Source: a virus
Reading direction: 5' to 3' (one strand)
Length of the DNA: 31,972 nt
Virus record (IMG/VR): IMGVR_UViG_3300030104_000940
Span: 1-31,972 of that record
Each line of letters starts with the position of its first letter. Position 1 is the stretch's first letter. Below are positions 30,023 through 31,345 of this stretch, one piece after another. A program made the position numbers and the translations under genes. The notes beneath the pieces are model-generated. The model searched no databases. It saw only the letters and a list, made by a program, of their open reading frames with translations, and was not told where the DNA came from.

Positions 30023-30049
30023 CTCCACCGAATACCTCCCTGAAACTTG

Positions 30050-30081
30050 ACCCCACGGTTCACGCTGTGGGGTTCTTTTTT
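30050..30081 (+). terminator. Strong intrinsic terminator at the end of the early region
   Basis: ACCCCAC (30050-30056) pairs with GTGGGGT (30067-30073), loop about 10 nt, followed by TCTTTTTT. It closes the plus-strand early and DUF932 region. Confidence 0.85.
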
Positions 30082-30499: not shown

Positions 30500-30576
30500 A
30501 CCATTATAATGCTCCAGAGCAATCTGTCAAGCATTTTTTTCTTGACAAACTCGTATACAGCGTTATAATGGTATAC
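30500..30576 (+). promoter_or_regulatory. Strong sigma70 promoter with symmetric operator-like repeats
   Basis: TTGACA (30542-30547), 16 nt, perfect TATAAT (30564-30569). Two GTATAC words (30553-30558 and 30571-30576) bracket the -10. A perfect 10-bp inverted repeat ACCATTATAA (30500-30509) / TTATAATGGT (30563-30572) includes the -10 and an upstream TATAAT. The symmetry suggests repressor control of the leader and terminase genes downstream. Confidence 0.7.
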
Positions 30577-30656
30577 ATGGTGGAAAAGTTCATATCCAAC
30601 CAAGTATAATTATTTATATTTTACCAAAGGAAATGTTCTCCACCAACATTTAGTGT

Positions 30657-30764
30657 TTTGCGCGAATGGTAATGTAGATTTTCTTTTTTTGTTATTGTTG
30701 AGATCGCGGTTCGTAAGACGAAACTCCAATGACACACTAAGACGTACATTGCTGTTCGCGCAAA
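30657..30764 (+). ncRNA. Candidate structured RNA (108 nt) in the terminase leader
   Basis: A 20-bp outer stem joins 30657-30676 to 30745-30764. Seventeen pairs are Watson-Crick and the other three positions are all G-U wobbles, so the helix is unbroken as RNA but not as DNA. Inside, GTTATTG (30691-30697) pairs with CAATGAC (30727-30733), GAG (30700-30702) with CTC (30724-30726), and TTCGT/ACGAA closes an AAG loop (30710-30722). A U-rich single strand (30677-30690) lies between the stems. It is transcribed if the promoter at 30542 is active. I match it to no known RNA family; it could be a free RNA, a 5' regulatory leader or a packaging signal. Confidence 0.6.
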
Positions 30765-30794
30765 TTCCTTAGTATACAGGTGTTAACTTATAAA

Positions 30795-30823
30795 ACAAAC
30801 AGGGGGATTTCGTTTCTGTTTGT
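30795..30823 (+). promoter_or_regulatory. Second leader hairpin
   Basis: ACAAACAG (30795-30802) pairs perfectly with CTGTTTGT (30816-30823) around a 13-nt loop that begins GGGGATTTCG. No T-tract follows, so it is not a simple terminator. It overlaps the start of the small frame at 30820 and could hide its ribosome-binding G run. Confidence 0.5.
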
Positions 30824-30966
30824 GGCAAAAGTTAGAGCAAGTACTAAATAATATAACAAAAGATATACACGCTCCTAGACTTAAACACGATACAAGACAA
30901 CAAAAAAGAATAAACAAACTTAAACATGAGCTTGCCAGCCACACAAAAACGGAAGTTAACAGATAA
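30820..30966 (+). CDS. Possible 48-aa basic protein overlapping the small terminase start
   Basis: A frame with TTG start at 30820: WQKLEQVLNNITKDIHAPRL, then KHDTRQQKRINKLKHELASH. The basic, helical composition looks protein-like, unlike neighbouring shadow frames. It overlaps the small terminase gene by 41 nt. The GGGGGA upstream is 13 nt away, a long spacing, and the start lies within a hairpin. Overlap of this length with a well-supported gene lowers confidence. Confidence 0.4.
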   Translation: MWQKLEQVLNNITKDIHAPRLKHDTRQQKRINKLKHELASHTKTEVNR

Positions 30967-31345
30967 GCAAGAGAGGTTTCTTGACGAGTTATTATCTAAC
31001 GGTGGTCATGTCAAGAACGCCGTTGCTGCTGCTGGATACAAAGAGCAATCTAGGTCTTGGTTAACAAGGTCACTGCGTGACGAAATTATAGAGCGTACTC
31101 GTAGTATGCTTGCAACAAACTCTGTTAAGGCTGCTAACCGTATCATAGAGGGACTAGACGCAGACGGCACCATTCCGTTAAACCAAATGGACATGCGCCT
31201 TAAAACTGCAGAGTCCGTTCTCGACAGAGTTGGCCTTGGCAAGAAACAACAGTTAGAAGTAGAAGGACAGGTTATGCACGGCATAGTCATGTTACCTTCT
31301 AAAGACAAACCTAAAGAGATTATAATCGAACAGGAAGCAGAGTAA
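30926..31345 (+). CDS. terS: Terminase small subunit
   Basis: 139 aa. RKLTDKQERFLDELLSNGG, HVKNAVAAAGYKEQ and SWLTRSLRDEIIE form the N-terminal helix-turn-helix of small terminases (xLTxKQxxFLxxLxxxGGxxxxAxxxAGY). The remainder is a helical oligomerisation region (RLKTAESVLDRVGLGKKQQ) and an acidic tail that would contact the large subunit. It recognises concatemeric DNA for packaging. The start ATG 30926 has an in-frame stop just before it but no ribosome-binding site, which suggests coupling to the small frame upstream or weak initiation. The large subunit is not in this window. Confidence 0.8.
   Translation: MSLPATQKRKLTDKQERFLDELLSNGGHVKNAVAAAGYKEQSRSWLTRSLRDEIIERTRSMLATNSVKAANRIIEGLDADGTIPLNQMDMRLKTAESVLDRVGLGKKQQLEVEGQVMHGIVMLPSKDKPKEIIIEQEAE

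Follow-up and report, generated by a model that had tools for sequence, protein, structure and literature searches.

The 108-nt element at positions 30657-30764 of the window, the complete viral contig of 31,972 bases that was analyzed as a whole, is, on comparative sequence grounds, a member of a previously uncatalogued family of leader RNAs with strong structural support. The features that mark the family are all found here: a covarying apical signature, a long outer helix whose letters are free to vary, and a perfect promoter upstream, the strongest host-type promoter of these uncultured marine phages. The RNA has a definite structure, strand, and family, and it keeps a fixed place behind its promoter, whatever gene follows. 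We propose that this leader RNA probably controls how the host RNA polymerase reads the late genes of the phage.

The window carries genes for a T7-like primase-helicase, a family A DNA polymerase, a class II ribonucleotide reductase, and a DUF932 protein, along with structural genes; no tRNA or tmRNA was found in it. Among named phages, its DNA polymerase is nearest to those of the pelagiphages HTVC103P, HTVC104P, and HTVC115P (about 42%), and its small terminase subunit, TerS, is nearest to those of HTVC033P (48%) and the HMO-2011-type roseophages. A nucleotide search of the named phages gave no match, and IMG/VR holds near-complete relatives of 52 to 56 kb. The HMO-2011-type group of phages has been described, and phages related to HMO-2011 are reported to be a dominant group in the sea (PMC9038755).

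The main structured domain of the RNA, P2 (30657-30764, plus strand), is closed by an outer helix whose two 20-nt arms are TTTGCGCGAATGGTAATGTA (30657-30676) and TACATTGCTGTTCGCGCAAA (30745-30764). The first-pass annotation had proposed that these arms pair along their full 20 nt as RNA, and this holds, with the three breaks in the DNA palindrome becoming U-G, G-U, and U-G pairs on the plus strand. P2 folds on that strand with a minimum free energy of -40.4 kcal/mol (z = -5.24; 0 of 200 shuffles were as good), and the fold of the opposite strand is weaker (z = -3.2). The 20-bp outer helix has a score of 44, whereas shuffles average 21.9 and reach 31 at most. Inside it lies an apical hairpin with the family signature (30701-30724, plus strand), whose loop in the window is CGGTTCGTAAGA (30707-30718). 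The nested hairpin TTCGT-AAG-ACGAA described earlier is not conserved, its paired cells (55%) being at shuffle level and its covariation being 0.014; the comparison instead backs the pairing of TCG at 30704-30706 with CGA at 30719-30721, plus C30707 with G30717. On the 5' side of P2 is an accessory hairpin, P1 (30578-30645, plus strand), in which TGGTGGA (30578-30584) pairs with TCCACCA (30639-30645) and which encloses AGTTCATATCCAACC (30587-30601), a segment that is kept across the window clade, where P1 forms around AGUUCAYAYUCAACC. The letters of the P1 helix vary by subclade (UGGUGGA/UCCACCA, UAGUGGA/UCCACUA, GUAGAA/UUCUAC, GUCCUA/UAGGAC, and ACAGGUCUC/GAGACCUGU); individually the helix is weak and not significant, and comparatively it is plausible. 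With P1 included, the RNA of the window measures about 190 nt.

Leaders were taken from 33 TerS relatives, and a TerS alignment search then added more distant subfamilies. About 30 related leaders retain the stem despite wholly different letters, as in TTTGCGCGAATGG, TTTGCGTAGGCAA, ATTGCGTAGGTAACAA, and GTGTAGGCTAAAGG from the TerS relatives and AGAGAGGCAAGGTGT, AGAGGAGAACA, GATGGAGAAAGC, and ATCGGGGGAAGTT from the more distant subfamilies. When the outer helices of 30 members were each compared with 40 dinucleotide shuffles, 26 beat every shuffle and the other 4 lost to at most 2. A MAFFT alignment of 19 window-clade leaders, covering 16 outer and 4 apical pairs, gave 92.8% standard pairs and changes on both sides in 15 of the 20 pairs, and RNAalifold predicts the outer stem unprompted. 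The covariation score, a count that ignores phylogeny and is safeguarded by a control with slid partners and by an independently trained model, was 0.533 for these 19 leaders (0.272 when shuffled and at most 0.173 when slid) and 0.561 for 29 apical hairpins (0.221 and at most 0.235, respectively). In the latter, the stem pairs switch among G-C, A-U, C-G, and U-A. The tip conforms to the signature NNG-[YNRYYCRUAARN]-CNN across the family, and positions 1 and 11 of its loop covary between C-G and U-A. A covariance model trained on the window clade alone found 26 matches in 203 kb, in distant loci that have the hairpin, and none in loci that lack it; its weakest matches at true loci had E values of 0.2 to 1.

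Which molecule is under selection? At the non-Watson-Crick positions of the window clade, read on the plus strand, G-U exceeds A-C by 21 to 4 (about 5:1), which argues that selection acts on the plus-strand RNA. The compensatory changes in both the outer and the apical helices, together with this G-U excess, strongly support the earlier suggestion of selection on RNA rather than on DNA; a covariance check on related leaders, also suggested then, did find compensatory changes in the stem.

The element stands behind a sigma70-type promoter, TTGACA-N16-TATAAT (30542-30569, plus strand; 12/12), which is expected to start the leader, so that the host promoter claimed earlier for this place is indeed there. 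Judging from promoter spacing, transcription would begin at about 30576, and the outer stem of the window clade would then begin about 80 nt into the transcript; in a compact subfamily (L092, L109, and L111), it begins within the first few nucleotides. The 12/12 promoter is kept in all 32 members checked, with a spacer of 16 (17 once) and with the tip hairpin 49 to 234 nt downstream. A divergent partner that reads leftward (30503-30530, minus strand) is likewise a perfect TTGACA-N16-TATAAT, as it is in 30 of the 31 relatives in which it could be tested, its spacer letters having diverged. It points left against the rightward gene block at 23.5 to 29.9 kb. In G001, a 53.7-kb relative, the divergent pair are the sole perfect promoters in the genome, and the unit behind the leader runs through terL, the portal gene, and the capsid genes. 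An intrinsic-terminator-like hairpin in the window (30049-30074, plus strand) ends the upstream rightward block, and thus the leader promoter opens a separate unit. No terminator was found after the outer stem in the window. T-runs resembling intrinsic terminators occur shortly 3' of the outer stem in L093, L094, L098, and L099; the window clade lacks them. In G001, sites that look like terminators are not commoner than in shuffles and so are not counted as evidence of antitermination.

In the window, the rightward packaging/structural operon has terS (30926-31345, plus strand) as its first clear gene; terS has no Shine-Dalgarno sequence. The leader region had been described as gene-free, and this needs qualification: a small reading frame with conservation at the protein level (xQTGGFRFCLWQKLEQ...; 30787-30966, plus strand) lies between the stem and terS, outside the RNA element, and overlaps the start of terS. 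No ATG or GTG, the canonical starts, is present at its conserved beginning. A further hairpin, at about 30793-30821, was initially read as RNA and then rejected, the conservation there being that of the reading frame. In the window and before terS in L013, L019, L034, and L042, the frame is conserved as RTGxVRFCxWxxIEQ...; at such loci it shares sequence, in a different frame, with the end of a CxxCGxCC ORF (SEQGVFVSVSGT) and lacks its own start codon, and its sequence would make a -1 frameshift with an internal CAGGGAG possible. The partner CxxCGxCC ORF is missing from the window, where the conserved frame remains. What comes next after the RNA differs among members: terS itself, with or without the small frame in between (the window, L008, L015, and L016), a CxxCGxCC ORF (L019, L022, and L042), an acidic ORF (L028, L106, and L030), or small membrane-like ORFs (L092, L100, and L111). 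Between the hairpin and terS lie as few as 84 nt (L015) and as many as about 2.9 kb (L118). It is the promoter, rather than terS, that the RNA accompanies.

Each genome has one strong site for the tip model. Weak second matches (19 to 20 bits) lie at G001:27425-27448 (plus) and G002:2906-2929 (minus), in two related genomes; both are antisense to the leader and about 1.4 kb downstream of it. The family model found no match in 12 cultured HMO-2011-type phages, and no such element was found in the open literature on these phages. The window had 0 matches in Rfam 15 at gathering thresholds, and the leaders searched against Rfam up to an E value of 10 gave chance-level matches alone (E values of 1.9 to 9.1), none of them a phage RNA. 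An exact search of 84,980 prokaryote genomes (257 Gb) for the commonest 18-nt tip gave 4 hits, which is about chance. A search with a badly designed pattern containing CCTTCCTGGGTT gave no match, and pattern matches in L043 and L045 were taken as chance, since the ORFs there are unrelated and the full signature is absent.

HTVC103P (L051), HTVC104P (L058), and HTVC115P (L052) keep the divergent promoters without the leader, which argues that its function is not universal. Their terS begins no more than about 10 bases from the -10 box, near the inferred transcript start, and this arrangement suggests a leaderless terS message from the divergent promoter. HTVC033P and L133-L141 have a different conserved structured leader at the corresponding promoter position (L050:1571-1645 in HTVC033P, MZ892993.1), with the stem UAUAUUAUUC/GAAUAAUAUA versus AUAUAAAUCA/UGAUUUAUAU enclosing an invariant AAAGG(G)ACACACAYACACGCA...GGGUCAUCAC; this second leader type has no match in Rfam.

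Within the family, part of the membership has further elaborations. In L020, L022, and L026, each RNA has two tip hairpins, and the second loop is CAGUCCAUAAGA. A self-complementary hexamer (CUGCAG, CGUACG, CCUAGG, or CCUGGG) occupies the same place just 3' of the tip stem in L028, L030, L034, L042, L092-L114, L122, L127, and L130, once per RNA; the window clade is without it. The self-complementarity of these letters hints at a kissing site through which two RNA molecules might pair.

Based on the observations outlined above, the element would act either in cis, on the polymerase or transcript, or in trans, as an independent RNA, because it is bound to the promoter and indifferent to the next gene. 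By analogy with HK022 put, to which it is not homologous, we tentatively favor, with something short of even confidence, a cis-acting 5' leader that controls host RNA polymerase as it transcribes the packaging/structural operon. In this model, the perfect host promoter at 30542-30569 would give a transcript opening with a structured 5' leader, of which P2 would be the main domain; the nascent leader would fold and, either by itself or through a protein held on its tip, would alter the host RNA polymerase; and the altered polymerase would read through the pause and termination sites of the long packaging/structural operon. The effect may also run in the other direction, toward attenuation rather than antitermination, such that the polymerase is let go only at the right time. 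Action in cis is favored because the element always heads one long unit, because no terminator parts it from that unit in the window, because packaging and structural genes placed behind a perfect early-type promoter call for control after initiation, and because the put RNA of HK022 is a proven precedent with a like placement. No gene for a T7-type RNA polymerase was found in G001 and the other members checked, a result that falls short of proving absence given that the control search was silent as well. Taken together with the sole perfect promoters, it suggests that late timing is probably set after initiation by the host polymerase. We regard as decidedly unlikely the more specific proposal of a put-like regulator that acts on host RNA polymerase as RNA only, gates the whole operon, and, in much of the family, self-pairs as two copies via a six-base bulge.

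The main rival, which we judge rather unlikely, is a stand-alone noncoding RNA that acts in trans as a regulator, as a decoy of a protein, perhaps the host RNA-binding protein suggested in the first-pass annotation, or as a virion or packaging component and is released by RNase III or by termination, the operon being merely downstream. It accounts equally for linkage to the promoter without linkage to a gene. Long helices are substrates for RNase III-like enzymes; the two tip hairpins per RNA in L020, L022, and L026 fit a protein-binding scaffold, and in four loci a T-run comes just after the outer stem. However, no terminator follows the stem in the window, the RNA is present as a single copy in a single place, always at the head of the operon, and its commonest tip is not found beyond chance in host genomes. 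Relatives with a homologous TerS also live without the RNA, which likewise makes the packaging RNA of the first-pass annotation, if it is one that this terminase requires, unlikely.

A leader attenuator or protein-sensing switch, in which elongation is blocked or the message is exposed only upon binding of a phage or host protein to the tip loop, would give an early-type perfect promoter ahead of late genes the postinitiation control that it seems to call for; a conserved tip loop capping variable helices resembles a protein site, and T-runs follow the stem in part of the family. The window clade, however, has no T-runs, no alternative terminator/antiterminator pair was seen, and there is no candidate protein, so we consider this reading unlikely. 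We find it quite improbable that the stem serves as a 5' stabilizer of the operon mRNA, guarding it against 5'-end-dependent decay: the position of the outer stem at the very start of the RNA in the compact subfamily would suit that role, but a conserved 12-nt loop is not needed for it, and the window-clade stem starts well inside the transcript. Least probable by far is the switch on terS translation proposed earlier. In its favor, terS is the first clear gene in the window, as it is in L008, L015, and L016, and has no Shine-Dalgarno sequence, but the start of terS lies outside the stem, many members have intervening genes that put terS as much as 2.9 kb away, and the element keeps its place at the promoter even as the genes that follow change.

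No T7-type polymerase gene was found in the members checked, and for the way in which HMO-2011-related phages time their late genes with the host polymerase, a covariation-backed RNA at the sole perfect promoter offers a concrete candidate that can be tested. If the cis-acting model is true, this new family would join the small number of phage leader RNAs believed to work on RNA polymerase directly. An experimental entry is offered by HTVC033P, a cultured phage of Pelagibacter that has the second leader type at the corresponding promoter.

Several known systems invite comparison. The lambda-type nut site (boxA/boxB) shares a promoter-proximal hairpin with a conserved loop as a candidate protein site; unlike nut, the family shows no boxA above chance (in 24 leaders, the best match to GCTCTTTAACA, the Escherichia coli type, was no better than in shuffles), and its hairpin caps a long helix. 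The pRNA of phi29 (Rfam Phage_pRNA) is also a phage RNA made from a strong promoter, and the RNA of the window adjoins terminase genes; in contrast, the latter has no Rfam match, and homologous TerS proteins occur in relatives that lack it. GOLLD and ROOL are ornate phage-associated RNAs of several hundred nucleotides (PMC12286853). They too are phage-linked structured RNAs, and the hexamer in part of our family could serve RNA-RNA contact, but they are larger and more ornate, and the window family has no Rfam similarity. The put RNA of HK022 binds the zinc-binding domain of the RNA polymerase β' subunit and suppresses pausing and termination. In that phage, the stem-loops of putL lie directly behind PL and need no protein factor to act on RNA polymerase (PMC9378689). 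The complete HK022 record, searched with the family model, gave no match at an E value of ≤5, the tip hairpin has no counterpart there, the window RNA is larger, and it is present in one copy heading a packaging/structural unit, whereas HK022 has two copies on early units. Like put, however, the element consists of stem-loops in a structured RNA that would open the transcript of a strong host promoter, it lies at the promoter end of an operon that host RNA polymerase would read, with no dedicated phage polymerase found, and its location just behind a host-type promoter, predicted from sequence, recurs in every one of the 32 members.
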